Part shown: one piece after another, positions 42,765 through 51,591 of the stretch | Layout of the letters: the number at the start of each line of letters is the position of its first letter | Position numbering within the stretch: position 1 is the first letter of the stretch | Assembly: GCA_007693595.1 (NCBI GenBank) | Contig: REDI01000041.1 | Span: forward strand, 1-64,000 | DNA: 64,000 nucleotides | Reading direction: 5' to 3' | From: Deltaproteobacteria bacterium | GTDB taxonomy: Bacteria > Myxococcota_A > UBA796 > GCA-2862545 | Made by a program: the position numbers and the translations under genes | Notes under the pieces: model-generated | What the model saw: the letters and a program-made list of their open reading frames with translations, nothing else | Told to the model about the DNA's origin: nothing | Databases searched by the model: none

Positions 42765-44579
42765 TTAGTCTCGGGGACTGTTGGGCTCGCCTGGGGTGGC
42801 GATCACCTCGTCGCGGAAGTCGGGGTGCACGTTCTGCCCTCCTGCATCGAGGGTGCAGGAGTACCATCGGCTGGGGTCGGCGCCGTCGCCAGGGGCGTCC
42901 TCGCGTCGCTCCATGCTGAAGGCTCGCCCTTGGCGCGGACCACCGGCGAAGGCCGCGCCTCCATCTCCGGCCTGGTCCACCACCACCCCGCGGGGGTCGC
43001 GCAGGTAGAGCTCGAGGGAGCTCCCCTTGAGGTACAGGCGCGCCTGGCGGTTGTCGTTGAAGGAGTTGATGACCAGATCACCTGTGCTGAAGGCGGAAGG
43101 GGTGTCTTGGGGGCGGCCCTCGAGGTACTCAGCGACGACGTGGTCGAGGATCGTGAAGGTCCCGTTGGCGGGGATGTACGAGCCTGGGGGCAGGCCGACG
43201 ATGAAGTCGGTGGCGTTGGTGATCGACCACATATCGAGGTGAAGATCGCGATCGGTCGTGTTGCGGAGCTCGATGAACTGGTCGAAGCCCTCGAGGTTGA
43301 TCGAGTTCACCCCGTACCAGTGCACCTCGTTGATCAGGATGTCGCCTGGCTCGATGACCTCTTTGCCCAGCCGGCGGGCGTCGCTGCGCGCCGAGCTGTC
43401 GTCGGCGTCGATGGCCCAGGTATTGCCCAGGTGCCTCCCCGTGTCCCAGAGGTGCTCGAAGTATTCGTTGTACTGCTCTGAGACGCGATCCCCCCGCAGG
43501 ACGATGAGGTACTCATCGTTGGAGATCGTGGCGGCAGCTGACCAGTTGAAGGAGCCGGTCAATACGGTGGGCGTGATGTCGGGATCGCTGGCGTAGGTGT
43601 CGATGAGCATGGTCTTGCTGTGCAAGCGCCCGCCGCCGGCCTGATAGTCGCCTGGTTGCGAGTTCATGTCGATACCGTCGAGCCGCATAGGCACGCCGTA
43701 GCCGCCGATTCGATATCCTTCATGGTACTGACCGTTGCTGTGAAGCTGGCTCTGGTCGATGACCCCCGCCACGCTTCGCCGGGGCAGGAGCTGGTCGCGG
43801 TCGGGGTCGTCGGCCCAGCGCTCCTGGAACTCCTGGTGCTTGCGGATGTAGGCGGAGCCGACTTCGCGTTTGGTGAAGGCGAAGATCGTGAAGCGGATGG
43901 ACTCTCGAGCGGCCTCGACCACCTCGAGCATGCGGCCCATGGTGTCTTCGTTGGGGCTGAACCAGACCTCGACCTCGGTGTCGCCGACCTGGTAGATCCG
44001 TCCGTTGTCGATCCGATCCTTGACGTAGCCGAAGCGGCCATCGAAGAGCTGTTGGAACTCCTCGGTGAAGTCGGCCGCCACGCCGGGGTGGTCGATGAAG
44101 AGCATGTTGTTGGAGTTCATCACCATGTCGGAGCGGGTCCAGTTCGCCGTTCCCAGGAAGACGAAGCGGCCGTCGACCACGATGAACTTGTTGTGCATGA
44201 TGTGAGCATCGTTACCGACCGACATCGGGATGCTGCGCCGGAGCAGCATCTGGTAGCCTGAGTTGTGCCAGTGGTTGACGTCGCCCACCATCCGGATCTC
44301 GACGCCGCGCTCGAAGGCCATCTCGATGGCACGGACCAGATCGGGATGGTTGAAGCCCATGACGGCGAAGTCGATGCTCACCTTGGCGTTGTGGATCTGG
44401 CGGATCATCGCCTTGAGGCCGTAGGGCATACGCCAGGAGTTGTCGGGTCGGGTGCCGGGCTCATTGAAGTAGACCTCGACCCGGCCGGTGCGAGTGGCGT
44501 CGACGTCGTCGAAGTCGGGGGGCCCACAGCCCGAGAACAGGATCAGGGAGCCGAGGGCGAGGTGGTGGAGCGCAGACAT
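42765..44579 (-). CDS. Secreted PLD/nuclease-family lipoprotein with two HKD motifs and lamin-tail domain
   Basis: 604 residues. Lipoprotein signal with LFSGC. Two phospholipase-D motifs are complete: HNKFIVVDGRFVFLGTANW near 130-150 and HSKTMLIDTY with TGSFNWS near 320-350. A lamin-tail domain follows (about 420-600; ILINEVHWYG, QFIELRNTTDRDL). HKD enzymes cleave phosphodiesters in DNA or phospholipids through a covalent His intermediate. The ATG at 44579 overlaps the upstream TGA as TGATG, with GAGAGG upstream; a GTG sits one codon earlier. It is the only clearly catalytic protein of this operon. Confidence 0.88.
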   Translation of the reverse strand: MSALHHLALGSLILFSGCGPPDFDDVDATRTGRVEVYFNEPGTRPDNSWRMPYGLKAMIRQIHNAKVSIDFAVMGFNHPDLVRAIEMAFERGVEIRMVGDVNHWHNSGYQMLLRRSIPMSVGNDAHIMHNKFIVVDGRFVFLGTANWTRSDMVMNSNNMLFIDHPGVAADFTEEFQQLFDGRFGYVKDRIDNGRIYQVGDTEVEVWFSPNEDTMGRMLEVVEAARESIRFTIFAFTKREVGSAYIRKHQEFQERWADDPDRDQLLPRRSVAGVIDQSQLHSNGQYHEGYRIGGYGVPMRLDGIDMNSQPGDYQAGGGRLHSKTMLIDTYASDPDITPTVLTGSFNWSAAATISNDEYLIVLRGDRVSEQYNEYFEHLWDTGRHLGNTWAIDADDSSARSDARRLGKEVIEPGDILINEVHWYGVNSINLEGFDQFIELRNTTDRDLHLDMWSITNATDFIVGLPPGSYIPANGTFTILDHVVAEYLEGRPQDTPSAFSTGDLVINSFNDNRQARLYLKGSSLELYLRDPRGVVVDQAGDGGAAFAGGPRQGRAFSMERREDAPGDGADPSRWYSCTLDAGGQNVHPDFRDEVIATPGEPNSPRD

Positions 44580-45736
44580 CACAGACCTCTCGATCGGGCG
44601 AAGTGGTCTTCGTACAGGTCGACAGCGAGGCGGAGCGGTTGGCTGTAGCGACGGGGACTACCCTGATGAAGTTCGTCCTCGACCACCCAGAGCACGCCGT
44701 CGATGAGCTGGTCGTTTTTGACGGGATCGCCCTGGTAGAGCCGCTTGGCCGAGACCAGATCGTGGCTGAGGGAGAAGACACGGGCGGGGTAGTAGTGGCC
44801 GTCGCGGGCTCGCTCGGTGTCGATAATCACGACGGTGGGGTTCGGACCACGGATCCGGCGCCTCACGACATCGGGGGAGCTGTTCAGGAAGTCGCGCGCG
44901 AGCGCGGAGCTGTTGGTGCCGAACTGCTCTCCGACGATGACCTCGACGTCGAAGCCAAGGCCGGCCTTGTCTTGCAAGGCGCGGGCGAGGCCATCGTTGG
45001 ACAGGTCATCGGTGAGCACCCGCACGTTCGCCCGAGCGCGGTAGATCGCGTCGATGATGCGCTTGGTCAGCCGTTGCTGTGGGCCGAACCACAGCTCAAG
45101 CCCGCGACCATCGTGCATCCGATAGAGCCATCGGGGATCGGCGATCGACTTGGCGGGGTTGGCGAACGCTGTGGTCGAGACCGCGTCGGTTCCGCCGAAG
45201 AGTTGGTTGTGCTCTTTGAGCAGGTCATCGGTGAAGTCCTGCCCGTTGCCCGAGAGGATGAAACGCGCGCGTTCATCGACGTGGCCCAGATCGTTCGCGA
45301 TCAGAAAGAAGATCCGATCGGAGCAGATGAAACTACTCGACAGCACGGTATCTTCACTGGGGAAGACCACGTCGCGTCCCAAGGCGAACTCGAAGTATTC
45401 CAAGCCGTCGTTGGCGAGCCGGAGGGGGACCTCGGCCTCCATGAGATCGAGGATCCCCGGATCGTTCTGCTGGTCCCAGTCGGTCACCACCTCGACGTCG
45501 ACCCCGGCTCGCCAGGCGGAGAGGATCGCGTCGGTGATCCGGGTGTCTTGCCCAGCGGGCAGGGCGATCCGCAGGGTGTGCGTCGTGCTGTCGATCAAGT
45601 CGACGGCAGCGGCCGCCGCGTCGTCGGTGGTGCCGGTCTCGAAGGTAGGATCGATGCCGAAGTCGATGCCACGAGAGCCGGGCACGGGCGCGGCGCACGC
45701 GACGAGGCTGAAGGTCAAGAAGAGGAAGGCGCGCAT
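44579..45736 (-). CDS. PLD-like exported protein lacking HKD catalytic residues
   Basis: 385 residues. The signal is MRAFLFLTFSLVACAAP, a likely lipoprotein (LVAC). The two-lobed PLD pattern can be followed without its active sites. At the first site ICSDRIFFLIANDLG then RFILSGNGQDF replaces HxK...D...G.N. At the second NPTVVIIDTERARDG then ARVFSLSHDL replaces HSK. It therefore looks like a paralogue of the neighbouring HKD protein that has lost catalysis and may bind substrate or pair with the active enzyme. Start and stop overlap both neighbours by TGATG. Confidence 0.75.
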   Translation of the reverse strand: MRAFLFLTFSLVACAAPVPGSRGIDFGIDPTFETGTTDDAAAAAVDLIDSTTHTLRIALPAGQDTRITDAILSAWRAGVDVEVVTDWDQQNDPGILDLMEAEVPLRLANDGLEYFEFALGRDVVFPSEDTVLSSSFICSDRIFFLIANDLGHVDERARFILSGNGQDFTDDLLKEHNQLFGGTDAVSTTAFANPAKSIADPRWLYRMHDGRGLELWFGPQQRLTKRIIDAIYRARANVRVLTDDLSNDGLARALQDKAGLGFDVEVIVGEQFGTNSSALARDFLNSSPDVVRRRIRGPNPTVVIIDTERARDGHYYPARVFSLSHDLVSAKRLYQGDPVKNDQLIDGVLWVVEDELHQGSPRRYSQPLRLAVDLYEDHFARSRGL

Positions 45737-46449
45737 CAGTCGAAGGCTCCTGCGGCGAAGGCTCCGGAGTAGTCGGGGCTGTTGGGCATTCCGGGTGAGG
45801 CGCCGGTAAAACGCCGACACTCTGGCTTCATGCGCGTATTGTTTGGGACTTGTACGGGTGCGTTCGTGTAGTGGTGCCAGGCGTGAGGCTCGCTGCCCCG
45901 AGGCCCGAAGATCTGGCCTGCCTGCTCCATCGAGCGGCTGACAACCAGGTCGTAGCCGCCGGCGAAGGGCGGCATCTGGGGATCGCCCGCGACCTCGATC
46001 AGTCGCTCGTCGATGTCCACGAGCACGACCCGGAAGGGATCATCGAGGGGGAGTCGAAGGCCCGGAATCACGATGTCGGGCTCGGGGAAGCAGCCGGAGG
46101 TCTTGGCGACGATGAGGACCTCGCGCGCAACCCCCAAGACGAAATCGGTCTCGGGGATCCGAAAGCCCTCGGGCTGGGTGCCGTCGATGTGCAAGCGCCA
46201 GCCCGAGAGGTTGAGCGGTCGGGCCCCTTCGTTGCGGAGCTCGATGAAGATGTCCGTCGGATCCCAGATCGTCTCGCCCTCCTCAGTCTCGCGCACCGTG
46301 CCCGACCAGAGGATCTCGTTGATCTGCACCGTGCCTCGCTCGCCGTTGTCCCCCCCGTCGTCGAGGGGACTGCGGTAGCCGACCTGCAGGACCTCGTCGT
46401 CGGGGGCGTCGCATGCGATCAGGGTGGAGAGTAGCAGGAGTCGTCGCAT
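45736..46449 (-). CDS. Lamin-tail-domain lipoprotein
   Basis: 237 residues. Lipoprotein signal with lipobox IAC (MRRLLLLSTLIACDAP). The lamin-tail domain covers about 40-130: VQINEILWSG, DIFIELRNEGARPLNLSGW. These Ig-like domains occur on secreted nucleases and adhesins and are thought to contact nucleic acid or other surface partners. The C-terminal part after 170 is unassigned. Overlaps both neighbours by TGATG. Confidence 0.8.
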   Translation of the reverse strand: MRRLLLLSTLIACDAPDDEVLQVGYRSPLDDGGDNGERGTVQINEILWSGTVRETEEGETIWDPTDIFIELRNEGARPLNLSGWRLHIDGTQPEGFRIPETDFVLGVAREVLIVAKTSGCFPEPDIVIPGLRLPLDDPFRVVLVDIDERLIEVAGDPQMPPFAGGYDLVVSRSMEQAGQIFGPRGSEPHAWHHYTNAPVQVPNNTRMKPECRRFTGASPGMPNSPDYSGAFAAGAFD

Positions 46450-48116
46450 CAGAACCTCAGGTGGGTGCCGGCGTTGAGGATCCAGGCGGGCGGGGCGTCG
46501 GGGTGACCGAGCTGGGTGCCCGCGACCCGGGCGACCTCGGTCTTGTAGTAGCCGCCTGGGATAAAGACTCCGCCCGATACGTTGAACAAGAGCTTGTCGC
46601 TCATGTCGAAGTAGAACTCCAGATCGATCTCTTGTCCGAGCACTTGGCCCATGCGCTCCTGGGCGGCAAACTCGGCGCGAGAGTAGCCATAAGGTGGGTC
46701 GATCGTTTGGATACGCCCGAAGTCAAGATAGGAGATGCCGGTGTCTTGCAGGTAGAGGAAGTTGCCCACGACGGTCATGCGCCCGATGTTCAGCCACGAG
46801 GCCTTCGCTTGAAGGACCCGGGTTCCCCCCTTGCGGTCGGACTCGTGGAGGTCGTGTGAGATCCCCGACCAACCCACATAGGCGGCCGGGTGAAGGCCCA
46901 GGTATCGGTTCGCGATCAGCCCGTCGATGTGCCGACCCTTCATGCCGACGTAGCCGTGGCTGTACTGCATGCCATCTTCGGCAAAGGCCGCGCCCAGGGC
47001 CTCGTAGTAGCCGAGCAAGAGGCGTGGCCCCTTGGGCTCTTGATAGGCCTTGATGATGGCGCCCACGCCCCAGGCAGCTCCGGTGGTGTCGACGTCGCGG
47101 GCGACGGCTTCCTTGCGGTCGATCCCATAGGAGGCGTCGAGGTTGGCGTAGAGGTCGACGTTGCCGAGCATGGCCTCGCCGCGGATCCCTGCGTTGCCCA
47201 CCCAGTCGTTATCGGCGAAGTTGCCCAGCTCACCGGCGTAGCTGATGTCGGCGCCAGTTCCAGGTCGGCCGTCGCGGCGTGCGCCACCAGCCCCGATCGC
47301 GGTGAAGAAGCCGTAGGCGGTCGCGCTGATGGGCGACTCGTCCTTGTGGAATCGGAGCAGACCGCCGGTGCGCAGGGTGCGGTTTCGCCCGCGGAAGTTC
47401 CAAGGACTGTCCGTAGAGCTCGCGATGTAGCCTGCGAAGTTGACGTCGTCTGCGCCGGGCGTGCTGCCGACCACGTCGATCGGGATGGCGGTGAAGCTAC
47501 CGAAGCCCTTGATCGGAACGTCGATCCGGATCATGTCGTTGATGTCGGCCCAGCTGTAGTCTCGGGTGCCCGCCAGGTTGCCGATCTGAAACGGCTGTCG
47601 ACCGATGCGGATGTGGGTGCCGTCCTTACCCCAGGGGTGCCAGTCCAGGAAGACAGCCGTGAAGTAGAGCCAGCCTCCGAACTGGTTGGTCGTTCCGATC
47701 TGGTGCGTGCCCCACAGCCCGCGGTGTGCGCCGCCGAAGCGGATGTTGACCGTGTCGTCGACCTCGTAGTCCAGCTCGAAGTTGATGCCGGTAAAGGCGA
47801 AGCCCGTGCGGTCATCGGAGTCGAGGATGTTCTGATCCGTCGACTCGTCGAGGCGGCGGAAGTTGAGGTTGTTGAGCTCATGCCACTCCAGATCGAAACC
47901 GAAGCGGGTGCGCAGCCCCTTGATCCGGCGCTGAAGCGGCTCTTCGGTGGCTTGGAACTCCAGGTCATCTCGGTCGAAAGAGCCCAGCGCGTCTCGCTCG
48001 GCCTTCTTGGTCGGGTCGGTGAGCATGCTGTCGGGGTCGATGTCGAAGTCCTGCGCATGGGCGGACGTGACCGTGGCGACGACGAGTGCCGCACAGAGGA
48101 AGGTCGATCGGGACAT
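46449..48116 (-). CDS. Outer-membrane beta-barrel protein
   Basis: 555 residues. Signal peptide MSRSTFLCAALVVATVTSAHA (cleaved after AHA). After an acidic segment come many alternating strands (TGINFELDYEVDD, AYVGWSGISHDLHES) ending in NAGTHLRF, the terminal Phe of outer-membrane barrels. It resembles alginate-export or porin-like barrels in general pattern only. No TonB box or plug is present. As the only membrane pore in this operon, it could be an anchor or conduit for the lipoproteins. Confidence 0.82.
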   Translation of the reverse strand: MSRSTFLCAALVVATVTSAHAQDFDIDPDSMLTDPTKKAERDALGSFDRDDLEFQATEEPLQRRIKGLRTRFGFDLEWHELNNLNFRRLDESTDQNILDSDDRTGFAFTGINFELDYEVDDTVNIRFGGAHRGLWGTHQIGTTNQFGGWLYFTAVFLDWHPWGKDGTHIRIGRQPFQIGNLAGTRDYSWADINDMIRIDVPIKGFGSFTAIPIDVVGSTPGADDVNFAGYIASSTDSPWNFRGRNRTLRTGGLLRFHKDESPISATAYGFFTAIGAGGARRDGRPGTGADISYAGELGNFADNDWVGNAGIRGEAMLGNVDLYANLDASYGIDRKEAVARDVDTTGAAWGVGAIIKAYQEPKGPRLLLGYYEALGAAFAEDGMQYSHGYVGMKGRHIDGLIANRYLGLHPAAYVGWSGISHDLHESDRKGGTRVLQAKASWLNIGRMTVVGNFLYLQDTGISYLDFGRIQTIDPPYGYSRAEFAAQERMGQVLGQEIDLEFYFDMSDKLLFNVSGGVFIPGGYYKTEVARVAGTQLGHPDAPPAWILNAGTHLRF

Positions 48117-48134
48117 GGAGGGAGGCTCCGTGGG

Positions 48135-48986
48135 CTACGGCCCTTCGGCCGGCTCATCGGGGCAGGGCTCGTCTTCGTCGACGAGGGCGACCTGGCCGAT
48201 GCGCATGATGGGGATGCTATAGGTACTGAAGCTGAACTGCACGGGCCCGGTCACGCAGAGGGTCTGACCGACGGGCGGGTGGAAGCGGCGCCGGTTGAGC
48301 TCGGCGCTCAGGCTGATGTGGTAGGTCACGCCGTCGGCGCGGACCCTGAAGTCACCGAAGGTGTCTGGAGCTTCCTGCACGACGCCACGGATCCTCCGGG
48401 TCTCGCCGATGTCGCGATCTTCGAGTCGGCGGTTGACGGCCTGATAGTAGACGGGCCGGGCCTCCCGATGGACCTCGAGCACGTCGTAGGCATAGATCAT
48501 GTCCATACCGAAGTTCGTGCGCACCGCACGCACCTTCAGCTTGACGCGATCGCCCACGGTGAAGGGCGCGACGCGCGAGTCGCCGACCACGAAGATGCCG
48601 CTGGTGGCATCCTCGATGAACCAGTTGCCGTAATACTTCTCTTCGGCCCGGTTGCATCCTCGTAGCTTCATGTACCACTCGGGATGCAAGGTGACGATGC
48701 CTTCGAGCTCCCAGGGGAGCTCCGCGCTCTCGCGGAACTCACACTCGCTGCCCGGGGGGTAGCCATCACCGGGCGCGTAGGTCAGCTCGATCGAAGGCAG
48801 GAGCGCGTCTCGTAGCGCGCGGACCCCTGGCCGGTCGCCAGGGAGGTCCGGGTAGGGCTCCGGGGTGAACCGGATCGGCTCCTGAACGTCGTAGTCCACC
48901 CCCTCGGGCCACCAGTCGGCGGTGTTGGGGAGGGGCGCGACCTCGGCGCAGGCGCCGACCAGGACGAGCAGGCTCCAGCGCCTCAT
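48135..48986 (-). CDS. Lipoprotein with OB-fold-like domains
   Basis: 283 residues. The signal is MRRWSLLVLVGACAEVA, lipobox VGAC. Two OB-fold-like units are suggested. The first has SGIFVVGD followed by VGDRVKLKVRAVRT; the second has IRGVVQEAPDTFGDFRV and VGQTLCVTGPVQF. The pattern resembles OB domains on extracellular nucleases such as YhcR and ExeM, but the assignment is by eye. The ATG at 48986 overlaps the previous gene's TGA (TGATG). The barrel gene starts 18 bp after its stop. Confidence 0.72.
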   Translation of the reverse strand: MRRWSLLVLVGACAEVAPLPNTADWWPEGVDYDVQEPIRFTPEPYPDLPGDRPGVRALRDALLPSIELTYAPGDGYPPGSECEFRESAELPWELEGIVTLHPEWYMKLRGCNRAEEKYYGNWFIEDATSGIFVVGDSRVAPFTVGDRVKLKVRAVRTNFGMDMIYAYDVLEVHREARPVYYQAVNRRLEDRDIGETRRIRGVVQEAPDTFGDFRVRADGVTYHISLSAELNRRRFHPPVGQTLCVTGPVQFSFSTYSIPIMRIGQVALVDEDEPCPDEPAEGP

Positions 48987-49876
48987 CAGTAGCGCCGGAC
49001 CCAGTCGAGGTCGAGGATGTCGAACTGGGGCTCCCCGTTGTCTTCGGTCAGAGGTGCGACGACCTCGACGCAGTTCCCGATCTCGTAGGAGATAATGCGC
49101 ACGCGAAGACGGTATTCGTGGTCGCCGCTCTTGAGGGTATAGCAGGTGGGCGCTCCGCACGATCCCCGATCTTCGGTGATCTCGCCCCAGAGGTGGACGT
49201 TCTGCCCTGCGTGGACGTCGAGATTGGGCGCAGTGCCATCGGTCAGGTCCACGACGTAGACCGGCTCGACCTCGCTGTGGACCACCAAGTTACTGATATC
49301 GGTGATCTCGACGTTGCCTCGGAAGTGCGAGGTTCGGTTCACATCGAAGGAGATCACGGACCCCGGCTCGGGATCACCGCTGATCAGCGACTCGTCGTAG
49401 GCGTTGAAGAACTTGATGCCAGCCGTCTGATCGGCGACGAAGATGCCCCCGGTCACCGTGTCCTCGGGGGCGTAAGGGCGGTTGATGACCACCGCTCGCT
49501 CCACCGGGATCACCGGGTCTTGATTGCCCGAGGACGCGTCGAGAACATCCTCGAGGCCCGCGTCGAAGTCGAAGGGCGTGTTCGTCACGTTGGCGGGGTT
49601 GAAGATCCCCATCCATTCTCCTGCATCGCCCGGGCCGCGATCGCAAGTGAAAGGGATGAAGTCGGAGTCGGAGTCAGAGTCGGAGTCGGAGTCGGAGTCG
49701 GTGTCGGTGTCGGAGTCGGTGTCGGAGTCGGTGTCGGAGTCGGTGTCGGAGTCGGTGTCCGCGTCGGTGTCTGCGTCGGACTCGGAGGAGGCTCCGACGG
49801 TGGGCGGCGCGCTACGGCAGGCGCTGATGGCGAGGAGGAGAGTGAGGGCTGAGAACGAGACAGTTTTGACGCGCAT
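48986..49876 (-). CDS. Lipoprotein with Asp-Ser/Asp-Thr linker and OB-fold-like domain
   Basis: 296 residues. The lipobox is ISAC, followed by an about 40-residue linker of alternating Asp with Ser/Thr. The C-terminal domain has GGIFVADQTAGIKFF, VISFDVNRT and NVEITDISNLVVHS, an OB-like pattern seen in surface nucleic-acid-binding proteins. The linker is probably a flexible spacer lifting the domain from the outer membrane. It is the first gene of the operon, divergent from the pseudokinase-phosphatase gene. Confidence 0.78.
   Translation of the reverse strand: MRVKTVSFSALTLLLAISACRSAPPTVGASSESDADTDADTDSDTDSDTDSDTDSDTDTDSDSDSDSDSDSDFIPFTCDRGPGDAGEWMGIFNPANVTNTPFDFDAGLEDVLDASSGNQDPVIPVERAVVINRPYAPEDTVTGGIFVADQTAGIKFFNAYDESLISGDPEPGSVISFDVNRTSHFRGNVEITDISNLVVHSEVEPVYVVDLTDGTAPNLDVHAGQNVHLWGEITEDRGSCGAPTCYTLKSGDHEYRLRVRIISYEIGNCVEVVAPLTEDNGEPQFDILDLDWVRRY
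49661..49780 (-). repeat. Tandem 6/12-bp coding repeat (Asp-Ser/Asp-Thr linker)
   Basis: Imperfect tandem array of six-base units on the + strand (GTCGGA, GTCGGT and variants) for about 120 bases, encoding alternating Asp and Ser/Thr. Units are in frame, so linker length can change without breaking the gene. The pattern is typical of slippage-prone surface linkers. Confidence 0.85.
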
Positions 49877-50151
49877 GGTGGCTCCGGGCTGGGTGGAAGC
49901 GCGGGGCTTGTACCCGGATCTGCGTCGAGGTGCACGAAAATGGCTCTGACGGACGTGTGCCGATCTGGTGTCATGGGCCGAGCACGCCTTCCCTGGCCCT
50001 GATCGGGCGACGAGCCCTCATGCTGGCGTTCAGGGCGCTCGATCCCATGGCTCGGGCGGCTCACCTCAAGGTCGCGCGTTACCCGAGGAGTCCGGGGGGC
50101 TTGCAAACGACCCTCACCTGCGCAAGACTTCGCTGCCGACGGAGGAACGTC

Positions 50152-51591
50152 ATGTCGCCGACTCGTCCCCAGCACTTCCCGCCGGGCACGCCCATCGGGG
50201 AGCGCTACACCATCGAGGGTCTGGTTCGTCTGGCCGAAGGGCGAATGTTCTACCTCGCGAATGACATGCGCCCCGACAGCCCCTCCGGGGATCAGCGCGG
50301 CCGTCGATACCTTCTGTCGACCCGATGGGACCCCATGGGTTTCGATGCCTTCGAGTCCTTCGCGGCCTTGGCGCTCGCGCATCCCGGCCTGGCGGCTCCC
50401 GTCGATGTGCTTCGGCTTGAGGGGCAGCTCGTCTCGGTGGTCCCTTACGCGGGCGAGGGGCTGATGCTCGACGAAGCGGCCCCCTTCTCCAACGCCCGCA
50501 TCCTCGAGATCGCCCAGCGCATCGCGGGCACCTTGGCTTTCTTGCATGTCAACGGGGTTCGGGTGGGTCCGATCACCCGGTCGAACCTGCTGATCTCTCC
50601 CGATAACAGCATCCGGCTCTTCGATCTCGACATCCTCAGCGTCGGGGACCAGCCTGTGCCCGACGGGGCGCGCTCCGACGAGCTGCGGGCGGTCGGCGAG
50701 ATGTTGCGTCAATACTGTAACGTCGAAGCCGAAGCCCTCGCCCAGTTCATGCACTCGGTCGCCTCGGGCGAGTACCCCTCGCCCGCGGCCTTCGGTCGCG
50801 CAATCGAGAAGCGCTTCGAGACCTTCGAGGCCCTCACCTACCCGCCGAAGCTCGCGGCCATCACCGACGTCGGCTTGACCCGGCAGCTCAACGAAGACAA
50901 CTGGGGTTGGCGCAAGCTCTCGAGTCGAGCCACCCTCTACGTCGTCGCCGATGGCATGGGTGGGCACGACAGCGGCGAGGTCGCGAGCGAGATGGCTGTT
51001 CGAAATATCTGTAAGATCGCATACCAGATCGAGTCCGAGGCCCCGCCGCCCAGCGAAGAGCTCGAGGCCCTGCTCGACCAGGCCTTTCAGGGCGCCAACA
51101 ACAGCATCAAAGACGAAGCCGACGAACGCGGAACCGACATGGGCACCACCATGGTGTGCATGCTGGTGGTCGATGGAACGCTCGCACTCTTCGCGAATGT
51201 TGGCGATTCTCGGGCCTATCTCATGCGAGGCGGCACGCTCCATCCCGTCACCGAAGACCACAGCTTGGTGGCGAAGTATGTGCAGAACGGCAAGATCACC
51301 GCCGAGGAGGCTCGTCACCACCCCCACAGCAATATCCTTCTTCGCACCGTCGGTACCGAGCGCGATGTCGACATCGACATCAGCGCCCTAGAGATCGAAG
51401 TAGGCGATAAGGTGCTGCTGTGTTCGGACGGCCTCTGGGGTGACATCGACGACCAAGACATGGAGTCGATCCTCAACACCTACGACGATCCCCGGTTGGC
51501 CGCGCGCGAGCTCGTGCGGGCCTCGCACAGCGGTGGCGGCAAAGACAACGTGACCCTGGTCTTGGTGGACTTCACCGCACCGGCTGGGTAG
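50152..51591 (+). CDS. Pseudokinase fused to PP2C-type protein phosphatase
   Basis: 479 residues. Residues 15-225 resemble a Ser/Thr kinase but lack catalysis. The HRD loop is replaced by VGPITRSNLLIS (140-149; only the Asn is kept) and DFG by DLD (158-160); the Gly loop is also absent. Residues 233-475 are a complete PP2C/SpoIIE-like phosphatase: NEDNWGW, VVADGMGGHDSGE, ANVGDSRAYL, LCSDGLWGD and GGKDNVTL. The ATG at 50152 has GGAGGA upstream. The pseudokinase may bind nucleotide or a kinase partner and control the phosphatase. No membrane segment, so cytoplasmic. Confidence 0.88.
   Translation: MSPTRPQHFPPGTPIGERYTIEGLVRLAEGRMFYLANDMRPDSPSGDQRGRRYLLSTRWDPMGFDAFESFAALALAHPGLAAPVDVLRLEGQLVSVVPYAGEGLMLDEAAPFSNARILEIAQRIAGTLAFLHVNGVRVGPITRSNLLISPDNSIRLFDLDILSVGDQPVPDGARSDELRAVGEMLRQYCNVEAEALAQFMHSVASGEYPSPAAFGRAIEKRFETFEALTYPPKLAAITDVGLTRQLNEDNWGWRKLSSRATLYVVADGMGGHDSGEVASEMAVRNICKIAYQIESEAPPPSEELEALLDQAFQGANNSIKDEADERGTDMGTTMVCMLVVDGTLALFANVGDSRAYLMRGGTLHPVTEDHSLVAKYVQNGKITAEEARHHPHSNILLRTVGTERDVDIDISALEIEVGDKVLLCSDGLWGDIDDQDMESILNTYDDPRLAARELVRASHSGGGKDNVTLVLVDFTAPAG

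Follow-up and report, generated by a model that had tools for sequence, protein, structure and literature searches.

What would a bacterium do with five lipoproteins and an outer-membrane barrel encoded in a single run of mostly overlapping genes? This question is raised by a locus in the window, the 64,000-nucleotide stretch of DNA analyzed here, in which six open reading frames, A to F, follow one another in the same direction on the minus strand (42765-49876). The explanation that we favor, with a probability of roughly 0.55, is that the products of all six genes form a single complex in the outer membrane, which takes hold of nucleic acid at the cell surface and cleaves it.

Organization and conservation of the six-gene operon

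Gene A (48986-49876, minus strand, as are all six) encodes a putative OB-fold lipoprotein of 296 residues, in which an Asp-rich low-complexity spacer follows the lipid anchor (lipobox ISAC), and gene B (48135-48986) a tandem OB-fold lipoprotein of 283 residues. The product of gene C (46449-48116) is a 555-residue, 18-strand outer-membrane barrel with the predicted fold of the alginate exporter AlgE. Gene D (45736-46449) encodes a 237-residue lamin-tail-domain lipoprotein with homology to the C-terminal portion of F, gene E (44579-45736) a degenerate PLD lipoprotein of 385 residues, inactive but homologous to the PLD portion of F, and gene F (42765-44579) a 604-residue lipoprotein of the PLD superfamily, a two-HKD phosphodiesterase with a C-terminal lamin tail. 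The original prediction gave this order and placed TGATG overlaps at four of the five junctions; the open reading frames and a direct reading of the sequence agree, locating the overlaps at 48984-48988 (A/B), 46447-46451 (C/D), 45734-45738 (D/E) and 44577-44581 (E/F). Only B and C are separated by a gap, of 18 bp. For B, E and F, the first-listed open reading frame starts upstream of the likely true start.

A lipoprotein signal with a lipobox cysteine is present in A, B, D, E and F, while C has an ordinary cleavable signal peptide. Five lipoproteins together with an outer-membrane barrel thus place the set in the cell envelope, where the proteins would be exposed at the surface and would assemble into a complex. 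In some Bradymonadia-type loci (L145, L146, L147, L149, L153, L157 and L168), E seems to lack a lipobox and to start with an ordinary signal peptide instead, and may therefore be soluble there.

The neighbors of the operon in the window are genes for a PP2C phosphatase, a sulfatase and an FAD oxidase. The PP2C protein, which has a weak protein-kinase-like part, is encoded divergently (49930-51591, plus strand), and beyond it lies the gene for the sulfatase-family protein (PF00884; 51603-54149, minus strand). A PP2C gene occurs near the operon in 13 loci, all from nearer relatives, and is divergent in 12 of them; the sulfatase gene is nearby in eight. A larger operon was considered and rejected, since no seventh gene is co-conserved in the flanks examined and the divergent PP2C gene recurs in the near family only. 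A scan of the locus for promoters and terminators returned nothing informative.

Among 58 relatives, C was found in 28 genomes and E in 27 of these, the one exception falling at a contig end; the two genes occupy the same genomes. Operon-type F, defined by an E-value below 1e-160 or as a contig-end fragment of such a protein, was likewise confined to genomes with C and E, and the remaining F matches were more distant PLDs without a full match. The order B-C-D-E-F is intact in every locus of sufficient length, and A lies upstream of B in most, so that the conservation of gene order in Myxococcota on which the original prediction depended is indeed observed. Overlaps or very short gaps between the genes were found again in relatives and are strictest at D/E and E/F. 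Such an order, co-conserved in dozens of genomes with repeated overlaps or short gaps, lies well beyond chance. Gene A is the least constant member: L057 and L062/L080 have a diverged OB-type lipoprotein in its place, and L063, L065, L076, L078 and L150 lack it. In L075, L158, L159 and L161, further A-like OB genes are encoded close to the operon on the opposite strand, and in L069 about 2.7 kb of extra sequence separates B from C.

More broadly, 61 of the 379 Myxococcota genomes sampled carry C, and the genes keep their order across the phylum. C was found in 20 of the 21 genomes of the window's own family and in 19 of 21 from a second family, f16, which appears to be that of the cultured predators Bradymonas sediminis (FA350) and Persicimonas caeni. 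Both species are predatory or belong to a predatory order, and this occurrence in a predatory clade is the sole pointer to a role in predation or nutrient use. As the operon is near-universal among the genomes sampled from this family of cultured, predatory Bradymonadia, its function can be tested there. A collection-wide scan with C returned 30 loci labelled as proteobacterial or myxococcal, bar a few with generic or evidently mistaken labels; as it used two short patterns and missed Bradymonadia, it is silent on other phyla. Two mobile origins were rejected: a plasmid origin, because C had no plasmid match, and a phage origin, because PHROGs returned nothing informative apart from one PLD-type family without a name, which F and E match.

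The gene trees of B to F are broadly concordant (Spearman correlations of patristic distances 0.73-0.90), although a minority of the supported splits conflict; of the genes of the operon, F evolves most slowly and E fastest. The kept order, the concordant trees and the restriction of lamin-tailed F essentially to genomes with the operon together argue for one functional unit. The operon is therefore real and conserved, and its six genes behave as a unit within which A is less constrained. That A is missing from some loci does, however, speak against the reading of all six proteins as one complex.

A probable phosphodiesterase, its homologues and the adjacent OB-fold proteins

Profile and structure comparisons bear out the OB, lamin-tail and PLD assignments of the original prediction, and in addition reveal what it had not described, namely that the operon is built of homologous pairs: A with B, D with the tail of F, and E with the catalytic part of F. 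The lamin tail of F matches PF00932 above the cut-off of 34.3 bits (39.0 bits, E 1.2e-9). The match of D falls below it (24.9 bits, E 2.7e-5), yet lamin structures head the list when D is searched against the PDB (E 0.008), and D is homologous to the C-terminus of F (HMM-HMM 99.8%, E 3.6e-29). Likewise, F matches PLDc_2 with an E-value of 8.4e-39 and protein E matches it with one of 5e-9, and protein E aligns with the N-terminal, PLD half of F (HMM-HMM 99.85%, E 6.8e-31).

The two PLD proteins differ in their active sites. Both HxK(x4)D motifs of F, H129/K131/D136 and H320/K322/D327, are invariant in 48 of 48 sequences. At the first site of E, an alignment of 26 E proteins shows that the catalytic His and Lys have been lost and the Asp kept; the second site is aligned to F less surely. 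As D and E are homologous to the two parts of F, together they can be regarded as a copy of it that is dead and split in two. D precedes E in the operon, whereas the corresponding domains of F come in the opposite order, and F may instead be the product of a fusion between an E-like and a D-like gene. The genome also encodes a second secreted two-HKD PLD, which is without a lamin tail and lies beside a MutY-like gene (L169:5913-7439, contig C27).

F would thus be the only live enzyme of the set, a two-HKD phosphodiesterase of the Nuc/Zucchini type that cuts nucleic acid, with D and E probably pairing with it or holding the substrate. When each half of F was searched alone against the PDB, the nearest solved structures were Nuc and Zucchini/PLD6, followed by NucT, with phospholipases far lower. 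In NCBIfam, F matches NucT at E 5e-17 versus 6.5e-5 for cardiolipin synthase, and its plasmid matches begin with short plasmid PLD-family proteins. This similarity suggests nucleic acid as the substrate, although similarity cannot prove it, and a nuclease function of the system is probable on these grounds. A role in DISARM defense was also considered, and was rejected because F is only weakly DrmC-like (2e-9) and the other five proteins match no other Drm protein.

The PLD superfamily also includes phospholipases, and F might instead act as a phospholipase or transphosphatidylase on the phospholipids of prey or host envelopes, with the other proteins docking it on target membranes. F does match a phospholipase (E 8e-12) and the cardiolipin synthases weakly, the carriers include a predatory clade, and PMC6085458 cites a suggestion by Mans et al. 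that bacterial lamin tails serve in targeting to membranes. We consider this improbable, since both halves of F are nearest to the nucleases Nuc and Zucchini, and two tandem-OB partners would suit nucleic acid better than lipid.

The model of B (pLDDT 93.0) has a tandem OB fold, whose best structural matches in the PDB are the nucleic-acid binders RPA, Teb1, HIN-200, POT1 and SSB. Its C-terminal OB domain superimposes on archaeal RPA with a Z-score of 10.5 (rmsd 2.0 over 83 residues), a match with which the OB domains of tRNA synthetases tie. The homology between A and B extends over most of A (HMM-HMM 98.4%, E 7e-15), which suggests an OB fold for A as well. The position of the spacer in A is conserved among relatives and its composition variable. 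Searches of PDB sequences with A, B and C gave nothing useful.

A and B, as lipid-anchored tandem OB proteins, may bind nucleic acid near the surface, and the spacer would extend A away from the membrane. Proteins and sugars are, however, ligands of OB folds as well. The six proteins are without exception acidic, with median pI values of 4.1-4.6, which lends no electrostatic support to DNA binding. The nucleic-acid reading is favored by the two invariant HKD motifs of F, its slow evolution, the siteless state of E and the resemblance of B to nucleic-acid binders.

The barrel and the possible fate of the products

The outer-membrane barrel of the original prediction is likewise upheld by the model of C (pLDDT 84.7, pTM 0.85), which has 18 main strands and, beyond what had been proposed, is predicted to be of the AlgE type. 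The top 16 Foldseek matches are all AlgE (best E 3.7e-17), and C superimposes on AlgE with a Z-score of 23.0 (rmsd 3.3 over 349 residues, VIA-align), versus about 20 for OprD-type porins. Of 24 relatives, 6 match PF13372 (Alginate_exp) with E-values of 1 or lower, the strongest being 5e-7, and the C protein of the window does not match it. Despite the shared 18-strand fold, C is only 11-12% identical to AlgE, no alginate genes lie nearby, and the AlgE partners AlgK and AlgX are unrelated to the partners of C. The pores also appear to differ in charge: the AlgE pore is electropositive (PMC4118822), whereas the inward strand positions of C hold on average 18.8 Asp or Glu versus 10.5 Lys or Arg, giving a net acidic lumen according to an approximate assignment by strand parity on the model.

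In the proposed complex, C would anchor the assembly in the outer membrane, and it may export the lipoproteins or admit products. Its closeness to AlgE (Z 23) raises another possibility, namely that C is a true AlgE-like exporter and that the set exports, trims or tethers a phosphodiester-linked envelope polymer edited by F, and HKD enzymes do act on many phosphodiesters. Yet genes for polymer synthesis or export do not recur in the operon flanks examined, and none for polymer synthesis is conserved there. As the inferred lumen of C is also acidic where that of AlgE is electropositive, such a role seems quite unlikely.

Alternatively, the operon could encode a DNA-uptake device, for competence or nucleotide scavenging, in which A and B bind DNA, F nicks it and C passes the fragments inward. 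NucT has been implicated in purine salvage and transformation (PMC5714352), and Bradymonabacteria have been reported to be without complete purine synthesis (PMC7460792). A count made by hand gives about 25 of the 61 carriers of C without a strong PurE match (E below 1e-30), compared with about 62 of the 318 non-carriers. However, about half of the carriers without a strong match belong to one family, so that the difference is concentrated there and confounded by ancestry. PurH is present in 50 of the 58 relatives and PurE in 359 of the 379 genomes; the genome of the window retains both, so that a need to scavenge purines is not evident for it. A link to scavenging through gene presence was therefore rejected, and the distribution of PurE and PurH neither proves nor excludes scavenging itself. 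Since, in addition, the operon has no recurrent neighbor for competence or nucleotide transport, and the acidic lumen of C argues against the passage of nucleotides, we hold such a device to be of low probability.

On the model of C, product entry through the barrel is doubtful, and uptake of the products is speculative. It is rather unlikely that the operon represents a new class of outer-membrane machine, in which an AlgE-fold barrel would carry a nuclease at the surface together with the dead, split paralogue of this enzyme and a pair of OB receptors, and the whole would capture, cut and import nucleic acid from prey or the environment. Were that so, it would be the nucleic-acid counterpart of the polysaccharide-utilisation complexes.

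Comparison with known systems

The original prediction held that no system of such composition had been described, and our full-text literature search, with subscription journals and preprints outside its coverage, found no description of an operon of lamin-tail, OB, PLD and barrel genes. A strictly ordered, phylum-wide module is thus described nowhere in the literature covered. Confirmation of its proposed function would show a diderm bacterium mounting a multi-protein nucleic-acid-processing complex on its surface, would furnish a clear case of a duplicated enzyme retained as a dead, split partner, and would give bacterial lamin-tail proteins their first context outside single-chain nucleases.

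In ExeM, Xds and YhcR, as in the operon, a secreted enzyme that cleaves phosphodiesters is associated with a lamin tail and with OB-like modules in tandem. In ExeM, a lamin-tail domain and two OB-like regions lie in one chain with an EEP nuclease; deletion of the OB-like region abolishes activity, and deletion of the lamin-tail domain reduces it (PMC6085458). It had been proposed that the operon holds the split modules of such a nuclease. This does not stand: catalysis in ExeM is by an EEP domain, whereas the six-gene system has an HKD-PLD fold, separate lipoproteins, an outer-membrane barrel and a dead enzyme copy, and its D and E proteins are homologous to the parts of F itself. With a different catalytic fold, the operon is not a split ExeM.

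Ca. Izemoplasma also has loci in which genes for breaking down extracellular DNA lie together, one of them encoding a lamin-tail nuclease (PMC8289736). Those loci consist of different genes, with transporters and nucleotide catabolism, and have no barrel, HKD pair or split copy.

By the sequence similarity of both halves of F, its closest relatives are to be found among Nuc, NucT, Zucchini (PLD6), PLD3 and PLD4, with which it shares HKD chemistry; Nuc and NucT are, moreover, secreted, as is F. Nuc, NucT and Zucchini carry one HKD motif per chain and dimerize, whereas F combines two HKD motifs in a single chain with a lamin tail and a lipid anchor.
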